Shown here: piece after piece, positions 51,544 to 63,274 of the stretch
Layout: the number at the start of each line of letters is the position of its first letter
Position numbering within the stretch: the first letter of the stretch is position 1
Source: a virus
Strand: one strand, 5' to 3'
IMG/VR virus record: IMGVR_UViG_3300027741_000025
Location: 80,364 to 144,363 of that record
Length of the DNA: 64,000 bases
Program-made: the position numbers and the translations under genes
The notes under the pieces: generated by a model
What the model saw: the letters and a program-made list of their open reading frames with translations, nothing else
Told to the model about the DNA's origin: nothing
The model's database searches: none

Positions 51544-52296
51544 CTATTCGCCAATCTTACTTAGAATTCTGGAGATTACTGGATTTCTTATTATATCTGT
51601 ATTTTGAAGCTTGTATGTTCCCACAGACTCTATATCTTGAAGTTTCTCATGCCAATATATTAAACCAGACTTGCCTGAGGGTAAATCTGACTGCTTGTCG
51701 TCTCCCACTAAAACAGCCTTACTATTAAATCCAACTCTAGTTATAAACAGCTTTATTTCTTGATAAGAGCAATTTTGAGCCTCATCAAGTATCATGTAAG
51801 CATCATGATAATTCATTCCACGCATATAAGCCAGCGGAGCTATTATTATTTCTTCGGTTCCCCTGTGATTTATTCCATTATTAATAAGAGTCTGGAGTTG
51901 TTGTTTGCTTATATATTGTAATAATTCATAGTAAATTGGCTGTAAATAAGGGTCTAATTTTTCAGCATAGCCTCCTGGAAGGAAGCCCATAGAAGAACCA
52001 ACCTCGACTACCGGTCTGGTTACTATTAGCCTCTTATAATCACCCATTAAAAGCTTTTCAATACCATATGCAACAGAGAGTTTCGTTTTTCCTGAGCCTG
52101 GTGGACCCATGGCTATCGTAACTGTGTTCTCTGCTATAGTCCTTATTAGCTGCGCCTGATTCTCTGTTTTAGGTTTCAACTTTGGCTTGAAATCTTTTAC
52201 AGGTGAATAATAATCGGGCTTGGAAGAATTCTGAGGAACCTCTTTTTTCCTTTGGTCAGAAGGCTTAGCCTTCTTGTTTTTTCTTCGTGATTTCAT
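51544..52296 (-). CDS. phoH: PhoH-like ATPase
   Basis: A 250-aa protein from ATG 52296 (an in-frame start at 52398 is unlikely because that extension overlaps the divergent gene). A basic N-terminal tail (MKSRRKNKKAKPS) is followed by the PhoH core: Walker A GPPGSGKTKL (about 63-72), LIVTRPVVEVGSSMGFLPG, APLAYMRGMN, Walker B YMILDEAQN (about 167-175), VLVGDDKQSDLP. PhoH is an RNA/ATP-binding protein with helicase-like activity, widely kept in marine phages; its exact phage role is uncertain. It is divergent from a metallopeptidase gene. Confidence 0.92.
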   Translation of the reverse strand: MKSRRKNKKAKPSDQRKKEVPQNSSKPDYYSPVKDFKPKLKPKTENQAQLIRTIAENTVTIAMGPPGSGKTKLSVAYGIEKLLMGDYKRLIVTRPVVEVGSSMGFLPGGYAEKLDPYLQPIYYELLQYISKQQLQTLINNGINHRGTEEIIIAPLAYMRGMNYHDAYMILDEAQNCSYQEIKLFITRVGFNSKAVLVGDDKQSDLPSGKSGLIYWHEKLQDIESVGTYKLQNTDIIRNPVISRILSKIGE

Positions 52297-52318
52297 GTTG
52301 TTAATAGTATATATTAAT

Positions 52319-52777
52319 ATGTTAAAAATAAATTTCAAATATTTTCTTGAATCAGAAGAAAAATCAAACTTAGAAAAAACAATTTCAAGATTGCCCAAGA
52401 AACATAGAGAGCTTATCCATAACTACAAATTCAAATATAAAGACAAAACAACATTGGACAAAAAAAATGTAGGGTTGTTGTGTGGAGATAAAATTGAGAT
52501 AGCCGGAGGCTGGAACTACAGCAAAGAATTCGTAACTCTACACGAGATAGGACACGTTGTTTGGGAGAAATTATCTTCTTCAGAAAAACACAAGTGGAAA
52601 GATCTGTTGTCTAAAACAATAGATGATCAAAAAAAGAAAGCGGATAAAGTTAGCAAATCATCTTTAGATCAAAATCCCGAAGAAATATTTGCAATGACAT
52701 ATGCGTGTGCATATTCAAAACACCCATCGCATTATTTTTATAACAAAAAATGGATTAAATTTGTGAAGTCGATTTAA
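52319..52777 (+). CDS. Zinc metallopeptidase-like protein with capsid-targeting-like leader
   Basis: A 152-aa protein from ATG 52319: MLKINFKYFLESEEKSN fits F-x-x-F-L-E. HEIGH at about 78-82 (VTLHEIGHVVWE) is a full HExxH zinc motif, and NPEEIFAMTYACAY about 40 residues later supplies the Glu helix expected as the third ligand. It is probably an active peptidase that may be packaged and either mature the head or act in the new host. There is no Shine-Dalgarno sequence, and an AT-rich TATATATTAAT precedes the ATG. It is divergent from phoH (22 nt apart). Confidence 0.72.
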   Translation: MLKINFKYFLESEEKSNLEKTISRLPKKHRELIHNYKFKYKDKTTLDKKNVGLLCGDKIEIAGGWNYSKEFVTLHEIGHVVWEKLSSSEKHKWKDLLSKTIDDQKKKADKVSKSSLDQNPEEIFAMTYACAYSKHPSHYFYNKKWIKFVKSI

Positions 52778-55942: not shown

Positions 55943-56209
55943 ATGAATTTTAAAAATTTTTTAGAATTACCTGAAGAAGATATAGAAGGAACAATAGAAG
56001 AAATACAAGACAAAAGAAATCCAATTATAATAAAAATTGATAACGGTACTCCTGCGGGAAGAGCCATAGCTTTAACTCCGGCGGAGTACAGAAGATATAA
56101 AAATATTTACAACATAGATGCTCAAACGGATGGACGTTATAACAAAAAAATCAAAGCTCGTATTCAAAAATTTGAACCTTATAAAGTTTCACAAATAATA
56201 ATTCAATGA
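55943..56209 (+). CDS. Small protein with capsid-targeting-like leader
   Basis: 88 aa. Start MNFKNFLELPEED is a clear F-x-x-F-L-E leader. The core (GTIEEIQDKRNPIIIKI ... IALTPAEYRRYKNIY) shares its end motif L-T-P-x-x-Y-x-x-Y-K with the 3289-3933 protein. Its stop overlaps the start of the serine protease (ATGA), so the leader protein and the exported protease are translationally linked. Function unknown. Confidence 0.65.
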   Translation: MNFKNFLELPEEDIEGTIEEIQDKRNPIIIKIDNGTPAGRAIALTPAEYRRYKNIYNIDAQTDGRYNKKIKARIQKFEPYKVSQIIIQ

Positions 56210-56943
56210 TTAAATTCTTATTAATTTCTCTGTGTTTGGTTGGGACCGCTTTTGCGGGCACTCGGGATCCCAACACACCAGATGAAAAGTATATAGAATA
56301 TGGCAAAAATTACAAATGTGTTTTAAAATTATGTACAAAAACAAAAGATGAAAAAACAGCATATGCTTCTGCTGTTGCTATAGGCTCAAATTGGCTTTTG
56401 ACTGCTGCTCATGTGCTGGACGATACTCATGATCCTTATGTTTTTATTGAAGGTAAAAAATATGAAATAGACAGTTTCATTATTCCAAAAGAATTCAATG
56501 ATAGCTTTGGATATTATGACATAGCTATCTGTCATACAAAAGAAGATATGAAACTAGATTTTTATCCAGAGTTATATAAAAATGATGATGAAGTAGGCAA
56601 AATATCTGGAATAGCTGGTTGGGGTGTGACGGGAACCTTCGATAAAGGAAGAAACGAAGAGGGGGGCGAGTTTATAAGAAGAGCCGGCTCAAATAAAATT
56701 GATGAAATAGATAGGCATCTGTTGGTTTGTTCGCCCAGTTTAACCAACAAAACAGAGTTAGAGTTTCTGATCTCACACGGAGATAGTGGAGGTGGTTTAT
56801 TTATAGACCAAAAATTAGCAGGAATAAACTCTTGTGTTATGGCAAAAGATAAAAAGCCAAACTCAAATTATGGGGATGAAGCTGGGCACACAAGAGTGTC
56901 GCTTCACAGAAAATGGATATTAGATACAATAAAGAATCACTGA
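56206..56943 (+). CDS. Exported trypsin-like (S1 family) serine protease
   Basis: A 245-aa protein. Signal peptide MIKFLLISLCLVGTAFA. S1 triad motifs: TAAHVL (His about 67), YYDIAIC (Asp about 105) and SHGDSGGGLF (Ser about 192), correctly ordered and spaced. KISGIAGWGVTG is the usual glycine-rich loop; Cys residues may form disulfides. It should act in the periplasm or outside, perhaps releasing progeny, trimming surface receptors or host defence proteins. Secreted S1 proteases are rare in phages. It is translationally coupled to 55943-56209. Confidence 0.88.
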   Translation: MIKFLLISLCLVGTAFAGTRDPNTPDEKYIEYGKNYKCVLKLCTKTKDEKTAYASAVAIGSNWLLTAAHVLDDTHDPYVFIEGKKYEIDSFIIPKEFNDSFGYYDIAICHTKEDMKLDFYPELYKNDDEVGKISGIAGWGVTGTFDKGRNEEGGEFIRRAGSNKIDEIDRHLLVCSPSLTNKTELEFLISHGDSGGGLFIDQKLAGINSCVMAKDKKPNSNYGDEAGHTRVSLHRKWILDTIKNH

Positions 56944-57224
56944 TCTTTGGATCTATATTCGCCCCAAGCTTGCTCCCACTCTGTATTTTTTGGCTTGAGC
57001 ATAGCTTCGGTGTCTATCTTATCTGGGTCTATACCTGGTCCGTATGGGCTTGGAGAGTATTCTTTCTGTAGCTTCTTCACAACGGCATCTGCTATTTGAT
57101 CATAGTGTTTTTCAATGGTATAGTTTACAATTTTATTTGAAAACAAAACAGTAAAAATCATCAAAAAACAAAGCATCAAAAACACCCAGAACAGATTCTT
57201 GTCTAGAATTTCTTTTAATTTCAT
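56937..57224 (-). CDS. Hypothetical membrane-anchored protein
   Basis: 95 aa. One N-terminal membrane helix (FWVFLMLCFLMIFTVLFS, about 12-29), then a charged domain (EKHYDQIADAVVKKLQKEY) and a Pro/Asp-rich tail. An AAAGGA ribosome-binding site is present. It overlaps the end of the convergent protease gene by 7 nt. Function unknown. Confidence 0.6.
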   Translation of the reverse strand: MKLKEILDKNLFWVFLMLCFLMIFTVLFSNKIVNYTIEKHYDQIADAVVKKLQKEYSPSPYGPGIDPDKIDTEAMLKPKNTEWEQAWGEYRSKDQ

Positions 57225-57252
57225 TTTATTTTCCTTTAAGTTAAAGTAGTCT

Positions 57253-57822
57253 TTATTTTTCAGTTTTAGGATTTATTTTACAAATAATCTGATTGCCAGC
57301 CATAAAAGAACTCTTTTCTACTGTGTAGAAGTCTTCACCTACACAAGATAGAAATTTTTTCATAAGCTCAAAACCATTTTCTTTATGAGATAACTCTCTG
57401 TTGTTTTTAAATCTCAAGGTTATTTGTACCTTTTTCCCATCTTCCAAAAAAGTCTTAGCTTGATTTGCTTTAGTATTTAAATCATGGTCTTCTATACATG
57501 ATTTGAATCTAATTTCTTTTAATTCATTAGCCTTAGAATTCTTCTTCTTGTCTTTTTCTTTTATCTTTTCTTTATAAAGATATTTTTGATAATTTAATAT
57601 ATGGCAAACAGGCGGTTTTGTATTTGGAATTAATTCAACAAGATCCAAGCTCTTTTCGCCTGCAATCTTCATTGCGGCGTCAACAGACATTATGCCAAGC
57701 TGTGTTCCTTCAAATATAACTCTTATAGAAGGAGATCTAATTGCATAGTTAATTCTATGCTTATGTTGGGGTTGATGGTTTTGATAACCAAAACCAAACT
57801 TATTGCCGTATCTGTAGCTCAT
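57253..57822 (-). CDS. infC: Translation initiation factor IF-3
   Basis: A 189-aa protein, full length for the family (about 180). A basic N-terminal tail (YGNKFGFGYQNHQPQHKHRIN) replaces the usual short tail. The N-domain is INYAIRSPSIRVIFEGTQLGIMS...LDLVELIPNTKPPVCHILNYQKYLY (about 22-82). A Lys-rich linker follows. The C-domain is KEIRFKSCIEDHDLNTKANQAKTFLEDGKKVQITLRFKNNRELSH... (about 102-185). IF3 binds the 30S subunit and controls start-codon choice and subunit joining. A phage copy could bias initiation toward phage mRNAs. The N-terminal HKHR extension is unusual. Confidence 0.9.
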   Translation of the reverse strand: MSYRYGNKFGFGYQNHQPQHKHRINYAIRSPSIRVIFEGTQLGIMSVDAAMKIAGEKSLDLVELIPNTKPPVCHILNYQKYLYKEKIKEKDKKKNSKANELKEIRFKSCIEDHDLNTKANQAKTFLEDGKKVQITLRFKNNRELSHKENGFELMKKFLSCVGEDFYTVEKSSFMAGNQIICKINPKTEK

Positions 57823-57864
57823 TTATAAAAATATTTACCTTAACCAATAATTATACAGAATTTT

Positions 57865-58497
57865 TCAGTAAATTTCAAGGTTATTATCCAAAATATTTAG
57901 ATAAATTCCTTCCTTCTCGGAAGGATACTTTCTGCTTGAGATTATTTCATCCTGAGCATTTCTCTCTATCACCTTAAATTCGAGGTAATATTCACCAGGA
58001 ACTCTGGTGTCGTCTACAAACCAGTTGTAAACAAGATAGCTTTCAACCAGAACATTCAGTTCTTTTGTGCCATCTAATTTCATAACATCTTCCTTTACAA
58101 GATCGTATGTTGCGCCGGAGTTCATTATTTTTATTATTTTGATTGAAGTTCCCTTTTTCCAACTTGTAGAAGTTGTTTCAAAATAACCCCTAGTGACCAT
58201 TACCGCATTATTTACAATAGAAGCCACCTGAACAAGTTCGTGTGTCCCAGTATTTTTAAGTAAAATCACATCCCCTGGAACCACTGCGCTTAATCCTACA
58301 TTATTTGCTAATAATATCTCAAAGTCACTGTCATTTATATCTTTTTTTAGTTTTGCATTAGCCCACATGCTGGCTGTGATTTCAAATTTACTTAGGTCTA
58401 TGGGGCTCCAATCACAGTCGTACACCTTCAACCTCAAAGAAGGTTGAGTACTGTTTCTCTTTATAATAAAGTCATATTTGCTATCTGCACATGCCAT
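57865..58497 (-). CDS. Tail/baseplate-type structural protein
   Basis: A 210-aa protein. DFIIKRNSTQPSLRLKVYDCDWSPIDLS resembles the N-terminal beta domain of phage upper-baseplate/tail proteins. The middle has VPGDVILLKNTGTHELVQV ... VTRGYFETTSTSWKKGT. The C-terminal part (VPGEYYLEFKVIER) is again beta. This two-domain form recurs in myophage structural proteins. It is encoded away from the fibre cluster. Confidence 0.65.
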   Translation of the reverse strand: MACADSKYDFIIKRNSTQPSLRLKVYDCDWSPIDLSKFEITASMWANAKLKKDINDSDFEILLANNVGLSAVVPGDVILLKNTGTHELVQVASIVNNAVMVTRGYFETTSTSWKKGTSIKIIKIMNSGATYDLVKEDVMKLDGTKELNVLVESYLVYNWFVDDTRVPGEYYLEFKVIERNAQDEIISSRKYPSEKEGIYLNILDNNLEIY

Positions 58498-58557
58498 AGT
58501 TTAAAAAATAATTTAACGTACAAGCGACTAATGTATATATAATTATCATTCATATAT

Positions 58558-58881
58558 TTAGCATTTGTATTTTTTAATATTATTTTTTAATAGTATATTG
58601 CCAGACTCTATCTCGGCTAATAACTCCAGGTCCATATTGGTTTTTGCATAACCATGGATATAAATCAAATCTCTGTATTTAGACTCAAGCTGCTTAAGCC
58701 ATCTCAAAGAACAATATAGACCTGTGTGATCTACGAAGTTCTTATAATCACCAAAGAAAACAACATATTTTAAAAAATATCTTTGAAGTTTACCTTTAAA
58801 GTATTTTAAAAGGAATTTTTTTTCTTTAGGGAACTCCAGAGTCAAAAATCTCATTCCTATGAATAAACAATCACGCTCCAA
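58558..58881 (-). CDS. Hypothetical protein, TTG start
   Basis: 107 aa. TTG initiation is chosen because AGGGGG lies 8 nt upstream and overlaps the end of 58871-59380. It is basic and aromatic (FLLKYFKGKLQRYFLKYVVFFGDYK). No motif is recognised. Confidence 0.5.
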   Translation of the reverse strand: MERDCLFIGMRFLTLEFPKEKKFLLKYFKGKLQRYFLKYVVFFGDYKNFVDHTGLYCSLRWLKQLESKYRDLIYIHGYAKTNMDLELLAEIESGNILLKNNIKKYKC

Positions 58882-59380
58882 AACTTACCCCCTCACAAAA
58901 TTCTAAGTATAATATCATCATTCCTCCTGCAAACTGCTGCGGAACGCCTGCTTTATGTAAACTCTTTAAAGTTTCATTAACAAGCTTTATTTCCTGGGTC
59001 ACATCCCCATTTTTCTTCGCTTTGTTCATATCTTCTTGTGTAACTATAATATAGTTATTAAGAGCTTTATATGCTCTTTGAACACCAGATATTATACTTG
59101 TATTTACAACTGTCGATAGATTGTGTGAGCACTTCATAAGATCTTTGGTTGTATTACCATTTTTAAATTTTTTATTATTAAAAAAGACATTTATATAATA
59201 TTTCGCCAAATCTTCAGTATCTTTTTTAAAATCAGAAACGGTTTGAACACCCATATCACTCAAAATGTTTATTGCTTGAATTTCTTCTGGTATGTCCTGG
59301 TCATCTGAGTCTTCATAATCATCATAATCATTATTATTTAAATAAGCATCTTCATAATTTTCTAACATTTTATCTTTCAT
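58871..59380 (-). CDS. Hypothetical helical protein with acidic N-terminus
   Basis: 169 aa. The first 32 residues are Asp/Glu/Tyr-rich (NNDYDDYEDSDDQDIPEE). The rest is helical, ending HKAGVPQQFAGGMMILYLEFCEG. An AAGGA ribosome-binding site is present. It is divergent from the lipoprotein at 59409 and overlaps the next gene. The acidic head could mimic nucleic acid or be a scaffold region; this is inference. Confidence 0.6.
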   Translation of the reverse strand: MKDKMLENYEDAYLNNNDYDDYEDSDDQDIPEEIQAINILSDMGVQTVSDFKKDTEDLAKYYINVFFNNKKFKNGNTTKDLMKCSHNLSTVVNTSIISGVQRAYKALNNYIIVTQEDMNKAKKNGDVTQEIKLVNETLKSLHKAGVPQQFAGGMMILYLEFCEGVSFGA

Positions 59381-59408
59381 TTTTAAATCCTTTTGAGTAC
59401 ATAACTAT

Positions 59409-59879
59409 ATGAGAAACGCCATTTTAATTACACTTGTTATTTTGTCAATATCAGGTTGTGCCAGCATAAGCCCAAGAAACAAACAAAATATCAATAATGA
59501 AAAAGGGGAAATTGGCGACATAAGAAACAACCAACAGGGCTTCATGTTGGAGTTGGGCAAAATGAAGCAAGATGTCCAAATGATAGGAAGCAAGCTAAAA
59601 GAAGTCCAAGAAGGACTGGTGAATCTAAATGCTTGTGTATCAAGAAATGACAACACAGGGGTGCAAATTCTTCAAGGAGATGGGGCTTTGTTTTTGGTTT
59701 TTAGTTGTGCAGTATTAGCATTTATTTTCTACTACAAGAACAGAAAAAATGAAGAAACGCTGAAAACACTGACCAATAAGATTGTTGAAATAAATGATGA
59801 AAATCTCACCAATAAAGTTATTGACGGAATAGTGGAAAAAGATCAAGCAAAAAAGATACTCAAAATGCTAAAGTCTTAA
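59409..59879 (+). CDS. Lipoprotein with C-terminal membrane helix (spanin-like topology)
   Basis: A 156-aa protein. Signal peptide with lipobox LSISGC (Cys about 17). Then a Gln/Lys helical stretch with FMLELGKMKQDVQMIGSKLKEVQ, predicted coiled coil. A membrane helix (ALFLVFSCAVLAFIFYYK, about 92-109) follows and then a 46-residue basic helical tail. A lipid anchor at one end and a transmembrane segment at the other is the layout of unimolecular spanins, which fuse inner and outer membranes at lysis. The long cytoplasmic-side tail is atypical, so this is tentative. Confidence 0.7.
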   Translation: MRNAILITLVILSISGCASISPRNKQNINNEKGEIGDIRNNQQGFMLELGKMKQDVQMIGSKLKEVQEGLVNLNACVSRNDNTGVQILQGDGALFLVFSCAVLAFIFYYKNRKNEETLKTLTNKIVEINDENLTNKVIDGIVEKDQAKKILKMLKS

Positions 59880-60118
59880 TCAATAGGAAGTCCATCGCAA
59901 TTATCTGCTATTGGCAGGTAGAAGCTGCCAGAATCAATTTTCTTTTTATTACAAAAAGCCAAAAACTCTGCAACTTCTAAGTCTACCACCGCTTTTTTAG
60001 AAGATTTTTTTAAACAATAATAGTGAGCATTTTTTCTTTCATCTTCGCAAAGATACCTGCAGCACTTGGCTTCCTTGCCGATTAAACAAACATCTTCGAG
60101 TTGTTTTTTGCTTAACAT
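59876..60118 (-). CDS. Small Cys-rich protein
   Basis: 80 aa with CLIGKEAKCCRYLCEDERKNAHYYC and later Cys residues that could bind metal. An AGGAAG ribosome-binding site is present. It converges on the spanin-like gene with a 4-nt overlap. No family recognised. Confidence 0.6.
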   Translation of the reverse strand: MLSKKQLEDVCLIGKEAKCCRYLCEDERKNAHYYCLKKSSKKAVVDLEVAEFLAFCNKKKIDSGSFYLPIADNCDGLPID

Positions 60119-60178
60119 TTAGATTGCTTCCTTATATGATTATAAGCATAGCAAACTAGAAGAACCAGTCAACAGCAA

Positions 60179-60415
60179 TCAAAGATATTTATCATTATTT
60201 TTATTTGACTTTTTTCTAATTAAATTACTCTCTTTTTTCTTTCTTCGTCTCTTCTCACTCGGGCTTTCATAATATTCTCTCTTCTTTGCTTCCTGAAGAA
60301 TTCCTGTGTCCGATACCACCTTCTTAAAAATATTCAAACCTCTTCTGAACACATCTTCTCTTTCTCTCTGAGACATGTTGTGGTGATCCCCATCTTTAAT
60401 AATCTTTATTTTCAT
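60179..60415 (-). CDS. rpsU: Ribosomal protein bS21 homologue
   Basis: 78 aa. The core FRRGLNIFKKVVSDTGILQEAKKREYYESPSEKRRRKKK (about residues 24-62) matches bS21 almost motif for motif: basic helix, G-(I/V)-L-x-E-(A/V)-(K/R)-(R/K)-R-x-(Y/H), then P-S-E-K-R-R-R-K-K. The N-terminal about 20 residues are longer than usual. bS21 sits near the anti-Shine-Dalgarno site and helps choose initiation mRNAs. AAGGAG precedes the ATG. Phage bS21 is known in huge and marine phages; together with infC it suggests translation reprogramming. Confidence 0.88.
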   Translation of the reverse strand: MKIKIIKDGDHHNMSQREREDVFRRGLNIFKKVVSDTGILQEAKKREYYESPSEKRRRKKKESNLIRKKSNKNNDKYL

Positions 60416-60438
60416 AATTTCTCCTTAAACTAATATAG

Positions 60439-61584
60439 TCATTCTTTTGGAATTTTAATAAACCTGGTACCAAATTTTCTGTTATGTATTTTTCTTATAG
60501 TGCGAATTGATGTAATCTTGTTGAATTCTGACGTTGTTGTCCAGGTGTCTCGATCTAAGTAAGGTATAAAGTTTATGATATCGTTTTTGATACTTTTAAA
60601 AATATCATTATACCAAGAATCTTTGTTTCCATTTGCAATAGAATTAACAAAACTAAATATAATCTTGGAAGGGGTTTCCATTTTTGAAATGTCAACTAAT
60701 TCATATTCTTTAGTGTTAAAATGTTTATTCCTTTCATCAAAAGCAACGCAAGGCGTTCTTGCTAAATTAGCAAACCAAGAAACTCCACTAAACAAATCTA
60801 GTACGCAACCTGTGAGTCGCATAGCAGATAAAACTCTGGGTATATCATATTCATTTAAAAATAAACAATCTGTGCCATCTTTAAAATCTTCCGTTAAATC
60901 GAAGCCCAATTGGTGATTCCAGATAACAGGAAATACACCTTCATTTTTTAAATAGTTTATTAATTCAACATAGAATTCTCTTTTTGCATTGAGTTTTGTG
61001 ACTCTTCCAGAGCTCCATGAATTTAAATATAAAGAAGGAAAAATAAAAACCTTATAGCCAGAATGTTCATTGATCAATCTGAGAAAGTCTTTTCCTAATA
61101 CAGCAGAACTTGGAACCATAGGATAATATGAATTTAATTCTGTGTATTGTTTCCAAAAATCTTCTTTAAATCCATTTTTATAATAGCTACCGAACTCATC
61201 TGAACTCACTACATTTCTAAAATTTTCATTTAAACTTCTTATTATATTTGTTTGAAACACCGAAGTATTTTCAAAACCATTTGAATTTTCAAAAACATTC
61301 TTGAAATATTGAAAATCCGTAAAGCTCCAAAATTCATTTGACTTCTTAAACAAATGAGAAAATCCAGGATATGAACAGGTTATTAAATATTTTGAGCCTT
61401 TTATTTTATTCTTAAAACCATCTAATAGAAGAGTGGATAATAAAAAAGAATATTTAAAATCTACAAACACTGGGGCTATTATTAGATTATCGAGATCTGT
61501 CGGAACATCAGCATCATTATATACTTCTCTTTTAAAACCAATTTTATTAGAAGTTCTATTTAAAAAATCAATAACAGAATTCAT
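60439..61584 (-). CDS. GT-B-like glycosyltransferase
   Basis: A 381-aa protein. Two Rossmann-like halves, with the second around VFIFPSLYLNSWSSGRVTKL and a GVFPVIWNHQLGFDLTED...LSAMRLTGCVLDLFSGVSWFANLARTPCVAF stretch, which fits the ADP-heptose/GT9-like donor-binding face (L-F-S-G-x-x-x-x-A). No DXD motif. It is encoded 4 nt after 61589-62701, a probable paralogue. Substrate unknown. Confidence 0.65.
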   Translation of the reverse strand: MNSVIDFLNRTSNKIGFKREVYNDADVPTDLDNLIIAPVFVDFKYSFLLSTLLLDGFKNKIKGSKYLITCSYPGFSHLFKKSNEFWSFTDFQYFKNVFENSNGFENTSVFQTNIIRSLNENFRNVVSSDEFGSYYKNGFKEDFWKQYTELNSYYPMVPSSAVLGKDFLRLINEHSGYKVFIFPSLYLNSWSSGRVTKLNAKREFYVELINYLKNEGVFPVIWNHQLGFDLTEDFKDGTDCLFLNEYDIPRVLSAMRLTGCVLDLFSGVSWFANLARTPCVAFDERNKHFNTKEYELVDISKMETPSKIIFSFVNSIANGNKDSWYNDIFKSIKNDIINFIPYLDRDTWTTTSEFNKITSIRTIRKIHNRKFGTRFIKIPKE

Positions 61585-61588
61585 ATTT

Positions 61589-62701
61589 TCACCAAGAAAG
61601 AAGTCCCTTTTGATCTAAAAGAGAATAAATCATTTTTTTATCTCCTGTTAAATCAGCAACATAATTCCAATCATCTAATTCCACTTCATTTATTGCGGTT
61701 CCAACAGCACCCAATCCAGATTCAAGATTTTCTAAAAAATTAAGATAGTTACAAAGAATTATTTTCTTTTTATTAAAATTAGAAACAGCGGCTATTCTTA
61801 AGCCCTCTTGTCCTCTAAGTGCTATTTGATCAAAAGATTCGACTAATATAAAAGGAGTATCTACAATAGAACTGAGTCTGGTCGATGCTGTCCAGAATTG
61901 GATACTGAATTTTACACAGCTAAGAACGGCTAGTGTGAATGAAAGATCCTGAACCATAGGCATAGAAGAAAAATCTACGCAGCCTTCCATGTTTAAACTA
62001 CTACTGTTTTCACCTAAGTATATTGGGGTGTAGCCCTTATATTTTATTAAATTATTCAAATCATAATAAAAACTTTTAGGTAAATTTCTTCCATATGTTT
62101 TTCTGTTTCTGGCGAAAATAGCAACAGAATTATCCGGAACATGTTTTCTTACGCTGTCAATGGTTTCTTTTTTAGGCTTAGGAATACTTCTTAAAAACTT
62201 TTTGTTTTCCACTCTGTCGAAAAGGGGACATGTTATTTCTCTGGCTCCACATTTTCCGCAAATCAAGTTTTCACCCCTCCAAGAGTTAAAACATTTTTTA
62301 CACACATTTGACACTAGAAAATTGCCAAGATAATGACCTTTGAATAATGTTCCAATCTTTTTAAGTTCGTTCTCTAGCCGGTCTAGATTCTCTGAATTAT
62401 GGTAAAAAGCATTGCATGAGTCTTTGAGCCAGTAATTTTCTGACTTTAATTCCCAGAATTCGTCAACAAGATGTCTATAGAAATAGTCTCTGCCTGACCA
62501 TCCAACCAATATCACATAATAACTATTGAATATTTCAAGCAATTTGGGAATTGAATACATGCAAGCAAGAGTTTCAACGCCAAGCTCGCAGAAGTTTGTT
62601 ATCACAAGAACTTTAGATGATTTTTGTCTTTTTGTGAACTTAAACACATTAAAACGAAAGTAATCTATCTTTTGTTCTTTTGATTTTTTTTTTAAAATCA
62701 T
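61589..62701 (-). CDS. GT-B-like glycosyltransferase with inserted zinc finger
   Basis: A 370-aa protein. Rossmann half one (KVLVITNFCELGVETLACMYS) is followed by an inserted four-Cys ribbon (CKKCFNSWRGENLICGKCG, about 134-153). Rossmann half two (NSVAIFARNRKTYGRNLP ... YIGLGENS-like YLGENSSSLN) follows, then VLSCVKFSIQFWTASTRLSSIVDTPFILVESF, the equivalent of the donor site in the neighbouring gene. The Cys insertion is unusual for this fold. Confidence 0.65.
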   Translation of the reverse strand: MILKKKSKEQKIDYFRFNVFKFTKRQKSSKVLVITNFCELGVETLACMYSIPKLLEIFNSYYVILVGWSGRDYFYRHLVDEFWELKSENYWLKDSCNAFYHNSENLDRLENELKKIGTLFKGHYLGNFLVSNVCKKCFNSWRGENLICGKCGAREITCPLFDRVENKKFLRSIPKPKKETIDSVRKHVPDNSVAIFARNRKTYGRNLPKSFYYDLNNLIKYKGYTPIYLGENSSSLNMEGCVDFSSMPMVQDLSFTLAVLSCVKFSIQFWTASTRLSSIVDTPFILVESFDQIALRGQEGLRIAAVSNFNKKKIILCNYLNFLENLESGLGAVGTAINEVELDDWNYVADLTGDKKMIYSLLDQKGLLSW

Positions 62702-62713
62702 TTATAGTCTGAA

Positions 62714-63274
62714 TTACTTGGGTTCAGAAGAAAGTCTGAGTGAAGCCATTTTATCGCTGATGTCATCGATCATCTTGGCAACATCTTCCATTTCTTTTTT
62801 GACACCATCAACTTCTTTTTCATTGTTTCCGATAGCGTGCTTAGAAAGGAATTTAACTTCAAGGTCAAAAAGCTTCTTCTTTAATTCAGTTAATTTATTA
62901 ATATTTTCACCAGAACCCCAATCTTCAGTTGGAACGTTTTTGGCGTCTTTGCCTAAATTCTTATAATCAACTGGGTTGCTACTATTTGCAATTTTTTTTG
63001 CTTTTTCAGCAACATCTTTATCGACAACCTTCTTTTTCTTTGCTTCAGTCAATAACTCATAAGATTCTGATTCTGAGTAATGGGCAATGTCATTCCAGTA
63101 AGAAACCTCTTTGTCTTCTGGGTCTAATTTGGAGTCATCTACTTGAGTTTGTCCAAAAAAGTTAGACTTACCAACTGGTTCTGCTGGCTTTGCTGGTGGA
63201 AAAACTCCATCCTTTAAAGCTTTGTCCCACTGTTGAGTCCATTTGTCGAATTGATCTTCTATATTGTTTTCCAT
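62714..63274 (-). CDS. Hypothetical structural/assembly protein
   Basis: A 186-aa charged protein. The N-terminus has FDKWTQQWDKALKDGVFPP, then SNFFGQTQVDDSKLDPEDKEVSYW. The C-terminal half is Lys/Glu coiled coil (KLTELKKKLFDLEVKFLSK). A TATATAAT box lies 3 nt before the ATG. Its helical, charged make-up suits a scaffold or minor head protein; this is inference. Confidence 0.55.
   Translation of the reverse strand: MENNIEDQFDKWTQQWDKALKDGVFPPAKPAEPVGKSNFFGQTQVDDSKLDPEDKEVSYWNDIAHYSESESYELLTEAKKKKVVDKDVAEKAKKIANSSNPVDYKNLGKDAKNVPTEDWGSGENINKLTELKKKLFDLEVKFLSKHAIGNNEKEVDGVKKEMEDVAKMIDDISDKMASLRLSSEPK

Follow-up and report, generated by a model that had tools for sequence, protein, structure and literature searches.

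Does the close placement of genes for translation initiation factor IF3 and ribosomal protein bS21 in a phage genome reflect a joint action of the two proteins on the host ribosome, or the shared inheritance of genes that are each useful separately? The question is raised by a 64,000-nucleotide stretch of DNA (hereafter, the window), which is taken from a linear virus record of 144,363 bases in IMG/VR (IMGVR_UViG_3300027741_000025, bases 80364-144363), a phage genome fragment. The record holds a single IF3 copy and a single bS21 copy, and both lie in the window. The original prediction, made from the sequence alone, viewed them as a possible translation takeover pair some 2.4 kb apart on one strand; this arrangement is as described, with both genes on the minus strand and a gap of 2,356 bases between them.

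The identity of the infC-like gene (57253..57822, minus strand; 189 amino acids, ATG start) is well supported. Both Pfam domains of IF3 were detected far above the cut-off (IF3_N, PF05198, 82.3 bits; IF3_C, PF00707, 81.6 bits), the protein matches PHROG 9787, "translation initiation factor" (4e-43), and its top PDB sequence matches are bacterial IF3 proteins. The AlphaFold model (pLDDT 88) likewise has IF3 structures as its top PDB fold matches in Foldseek. The Pfam domains, the model, and the fold matches agree on an N-terminal and a C-terminal domain with a helical linker between them, which confirms, for exactly this ORF, the two-domain IF3 that had been proposed. On the one hand, the window protein shares the two-domain fold and the invariant residues with cellular infC products: in the alignment, E. 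coli K110 and R133 are invariant across the phage sequences compared, the Y75 position is occupied by either Y or F, and H137 is largely retained in lineage A, the group of phages that includes the window (described below). On the other hand, at four positions with important basic residues in E. coli IF3, R99, R112, R147, and R168, the window has K, N, K, and N, respectively. In the bacterial IF3 panel, positions 99, 112, and 147 are variable and position 168 is always R or K. Loss of key 16S rRNA-contacting residues from both proteins, the outcome named beforehand as speaking against a joint role, is not what we found, because K110, Y75, and R133 are kept, and H137 mostly so, despite the N at the R168 and R112 positions.

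The IF3 gene begins with codons (57757..57822, minus strand) for a 22-residue N-terminal tail, MSYRYGNKFGFGYQNHQPQHKH, whose basic and aromatic character had been pointed out in the original prediction. The tail is real; however, its low model confidence (pLDDT ~51) suggests that it is disordered, and it varies across lineage A. It is similar in the nearest relatives, being alike in L041 and partly alike in L016 and L002, and is missing from three other members (L045, L049, and L017), so the idea of a tail shared throughout the lineage was rejected. At two loci, we also observed a 94-residue protein that has the IF3 C-terminal domain only, encoded approximately 8-9 kb upstream of bS21 on the same strand (L068:1843-2127 and L070:216-500); on its own, IF3C can still perform IF3 functions in vitro, with lower affinity (PMC4611024).

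The rpsU-like gene (60179..60415, minus strand) encodes a 78-residue protein that was identified as bS21 by the Ribosomal_S21 domain (PF01165, 47.1 bits versus a cut-off of 27), PHROG 21469, and bS21 chains in PDB; here too the ORF is exactly the one originally assigned to a bS21 homologue. Its R/K-rich C-terminal helix, REYYESPSEKRRRKKKES, agrees with bacterial bS21, and its N-terminus is divergent. A Shine-Dalgarno (SD)-like AAGGAG lies upstream (60421..60426, minus strand), and an SD-like motif precedes bS21 in the majority of lineage A relatives as well. In all comparisons of relatives that allowed an estimate of dS, dN (NG86) was far below dS for IF3 and bS21 alike, a sign of purifying selection; thus, neither gene resembles a decaying pseudogene.

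A scan for related loci with the window IF3 sequence alone gave no matches, and queries built from alignments were required. Similarly, bS21 neighbors were sought by profile, because a tblastn search of named phages with the bS21 of the window gave no match at E 0.01. The IMG/VR scans yielded 60 distinct IF3-bearing loci, 30 of which have bS21 within approximately 9 kb of IF3, in every case on the same strand, although these contigs are often fragments, the loci are not independent, and lineage A is over-sampled because the last IF3 query alignment was made from its proteins. Among 20 records with no near bS21, only three carry the gene at all; in these it is on the same strand, 12-14 kb upstream, and one of the three matches falls just under the Pfam cut-off. 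The same genes in the same order are present in the 595-kb huge phage LR756511, where bS21 is approximately 5.6 kb upstream of IF3. Conversely, the huge-phage genomes LR756504 and LR756501 have both genes far apart, many phages have bS21 with no nearby IF3, and others have IF3 and lack bS21. None of the 80 bacterial IF3 loci examined has bS21 in the fetched flanks (full 10-kb flanks in 39 of them). The recurrence of the linkage in phages, on one strand and in two gene contexts, together with its absence around bacterial infC, bears out the view that it is meaningful, and hints that the two proteins may jointly steer the host ribosome. That view is weakened by lineage A itself, which retains several other small genes of the block as often as IF3 and bS21.

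Lineage A consists of the window, LR756511, and about 25 others, and its block runs from two glycosyltransferase (GT)-like genes through bS21, families 4, 3, and 5, and the tail-like family 2 to IF3. All block genes of the window are on the minus strand unless stated otherwise, and their frequencies refer to 27 linked lineage A loci; because linkage was the criterion for choosing these loci, they contain IF3 and bS21 by construction, whereas the frequencies of other families were not fixed by the selection. The gene directly upstream of bS21 (60439..61584), separated from it by 23 bases, encodes a GT-B/GT9-like protein whose AlphaFold model (pLDDT 84) matches TagF, WaaC, and GT9 in Foldseek with weak TM scores (approximately 0.26-0.41); it is preceded by its paralogue, family 1 (61589..62701; 26/27), and by family 13, with an unassigned product (62714..63274; 17/27). 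Directly downstream of bS21 is family 4, a small Cys-containing protein (59876..60118; 25/27). Families 3 (58871..59380; 25/27) and 5 (58558..58881; 23/27) have unassigned products, and family searches of the Pfam and PHROG type gave no significant match for the family 5 protein. Family 2 (57865..58497; 25/27), directly upstream of IF3, resembles a tail protein (PHROG 6284, 1.5e-6). Downstream of IF3 is family 17, a small membrane-like protein (56937..57224; 14/27), and a gene for a trypsin-like protease that appears to carry a signal peptide adjoins the block on the plus strand (56206-56943). Further along, the window carries a PhoH-like gene (51544-52398, minus strand), the family of which was found in 18 of the 27 loci. 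In the bS21 neighbors scanned, which were a part of the total, there was no significant match to the TerL, MCP, portal, or prohead-protease families.

Transcription of the pair as a single operon is doubtful in the window, because an antisense gene on the plus strand, encoding a small lipoprotein- or membrane-like protein (family 12, 59409..59879), sits between IF3 and bS21; this family is present, also in antisense, in 17 of the 27 loci. Promoter-like sites in the block match chance (28 versus 26.9 expected) and give no guide to operon limits. We also noted 12 terminator-like hairpins in window positions 56800-62900, versus 2.2 in the shuffle expectation.

In lineage B (L020-L026, L124, and L129/L134/L145), the order is ClpX-IF3-bS21-Hsp20-ClpS, with the ClpX, Hsp20, and ClpS genes named from their own sequences and from annotated homologues in Sinorhizobium phage Phosso, which has an expanded version of this arrangement. 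The order was found in three sub-lineages, and IF3 and bS21 are 4-8 bp apart or overlap at their ends, which suggests that they are translationally coupled in these phages. Among the genes tested, IF3 and bS21 are the sole block genes that lineages A and B have in common. Lineage B is split on the IF3 tree, but the AU test does not reject a single B clade (p 0.084), and we therefore treat it as one lineage.

These two architectures bear on the strong rival to joint action, namely, passive conservation of a block in which IF3 and bS21 are each useful separately and are co-inherited with the GT-like pair, small proteins, the tail gene, and chaperones; we regard this explanation as a serious contender that nevertheless falls somewhat short of an even chance. 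It draws on the retention of families 1-5 in the 27 loci about as often as the pair, which means that synteny within lineage A fails to single out IF3 and bS21, and on the antisense gene that divides the block. It also accords with the IF3 tree, where lineage A forms one side of a branch (91/83), so that its linkage amounts to approximately one event. What this explanation does not readily accommodate is lineage B, in which the two genes directly abut in a different context, or the same-strand orientation of every linked pair. In addition, the AU test disfavors a single clade for all linked IF3s (p 0.0125), which fits more than one assembly, or losses; the pair could have been assembled twice, or once with subsequent rearrangement and loss.

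The start codon of the phage infC genes sets them apart from their bacterial counterparts. In bacteria, an SD-preceded non-canonical codon (AUU, AUA, AUC, or CUG) was found at the expected start in 66 of 80 infC loci, with control codons in 23 of 80, whereas only 4 of 43 phage loci have such a start (Fisher 8e-16, a value that overstates the evidence because the loci are related). The window gene has ATG at 57820-57822 and no SD-preceded AUU, AUA, AUC, or CUG, and therefore lacks the hallmark of autoregulated infC. In E. coli, changing the infC AUU to AUG is reported to abolish autocontrol (Butler 1987, cited in PMC9845219). With an AUG start and the non-canonical codon mostly lacking, phage infC probably escapes the feedback that IF3 exerts on its own gene. 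More broadly, an SD-like motif in the right position precedes approximately 20-37% of the genes in the record, depending on motif and gene set, whereas the control windows gave approximately 2-7% for the record and 12% when all compared loci were pooled; bS21 is preceded by AAGGAG and IF3 has no SD. Since only part of the genes have the motif, phage mRNAs appear to be a mix with and without SD. TATAAAT motifs are mildly enriched upstream of genes, and across the whole record ATATA and TATAA are enriched directly upstream of starts (26 versus 10 and 19 versus 5, respectively).

The reading that we prefer, at about even confidence, is that both proteins are working phage copies, maintained in a conserved gene block, that load onto host 30S subunits during infection and keep initiation going, or bias it, for phage mRNAs with and without SD. 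Phage bS21 would replace or top up host bS21 at the platform beside the anti-SD tail, and phage IF3 would compete with host IF3. Started from AUG, phage infC would evade the feedback that limits bacterial infC, so phage IF3 could accumulate, and the excess could repress, through that same feedback, a host infC that has a non-canonical start. Joint loading is favored by published evidence. Both proteins work at the 30S platform: IF3N can sit near uS11 (PMC8266586), and bS21 adjoins the 16S 3' tail, in a place incompatible with the position of the SD duplex in Thermus ribosomes (PMC4611024). In Flavobacterium johnsoniae, bS21 and IF3 are functionally connected in start selection, since formation of 30S complexes on SD-less mRNA is strictly IF3-dependent and is favored by intact bS21 (PMC9976891). 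Finally, a phage bS21 enters E. coli ribosomes (PMC6375957). Counting against the proposal are the in vitro activity of purified ribosomes with a pelagiphage bS21, approximately 5% of the normal level and thus perhaps a sign of shut-off instead of help (PMC6375957), the N residues of the window IF3 at R168 and R112, the antisense gene between the pair, the equally kept block genes, and the separation of IF3 and bS21 in other phages. A bolder version, in which an initiation-swapping module was assembled at least twice (in A and in B), escapes infC autoregulation through its AUG start, shuts off host infC via the AUU-type feedback of the host itself, rebuilds the 30S subunit with two phage components, and alters start selection during infection, seems to us unlikely.

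The same genes could serve a more modest end, in which the phage merely tops up initiation factors that are labile or limiting while host transcripts vanish, with no preference for phage mRNAs. We consider this plausible but on balance doubtful. In many lineage A members, bS21 is followed by a peptide deformylase gene and IF3 by GroES-like and DnaJ genes, which looks like general support of protein production. The block of the window sub-clade (with L041/L114, L016, and L117/L043) has none of these three genes, and profile searches of the window record, itself a fragment, found no IF1, S1, L12, or peptide deformylase; no tRNA was found in the record either, nor any tRNA or Rfam match within the window. 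Support in the window thus appears confined to initiation, and the changes at R112 and R168 that are frequent in lineage A, like the divergent bS21 N-terminus, would be unexpected under plain supplementation. Lineage B invites yet another scenario, in which ClpX and ClpS remove host bS21 or IF3 and the phage versions substitute for them. The ClpX-IF3-bS21-Hsp20-ClpS order in three sub-lineages fits this scenario, a phage protease that might target host bS21 has been the subject of speculation (PMC9976891), and Hsp20 and Clp have been listed among bS21 neighbors (PMC9723584). Yet the block of the window lineage has no ClpX or ClpS, and HMM searches found neither these nor GroES-like, DnaJ, or peptide deformylase genes in the window record (a fragment); we consider disposal of host copies improbable.

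That phages encode IF3 and bS21, and that one phage may encode both, was known, as the original prediction had assumed in part: the consulted portion of PMC7162821 lists IF1, IF3, and S21 among huge-phage genes and does not describe an IF3-bS21 linkage, and a phage with both IF3 and S21 has been published (PMC11242549). The closest described system is LR756511.1 (PMC7162821), whose IF3 shows 46% identity to that of the window across 94% of the query and which has bS21, IF3, and the block in the same order; it differs from the window in adding peptide deformylase, chaperones, IF1, L12, and tmRNA, the last encoded upstream of the block (L002:4892-5244). Like the window, two jumbo phages of Sinorhizobium, AP-J-162 (PMC11242549) and Phosso (PV764938), have IF3 and S21 in one genome, on the same strand and approximately 7 kb apart in Phosso; however, their gene order is that of lineage B, including ClpX, Hsp20, and ClpS, and the Phosso IF3 is ~35% identical to that of the window. 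Freshwater phages that encode bS21 (PMC9723584) are similar in having a phage bS21 and an inferred late takeover of the ribosome; in these phages, bS21 is antisense among capsid and terminase genes, and the text does not mention IF3. In the literature that we found, the coverage of which is incomplete, there was no report of either the IF3-bS21 linkage or the phage start-codon difference; both features thus appear to be new, while both genes, and the Clp/Hsp20 neighbors of bS21 (PMC9723584), had already been published.

Phage translation genes are usually catalogued singly, and a recurrent, strand-locked linkage of IF3 and bS21 turns two such entries into a testable two-protein hypothesis. Relatives from lineage B, the Sinorhizobium jumbo phages, are in culture, and the start-codon difference would predict a specific and measurable loss of the feedback through which host IF3 acts on infC.
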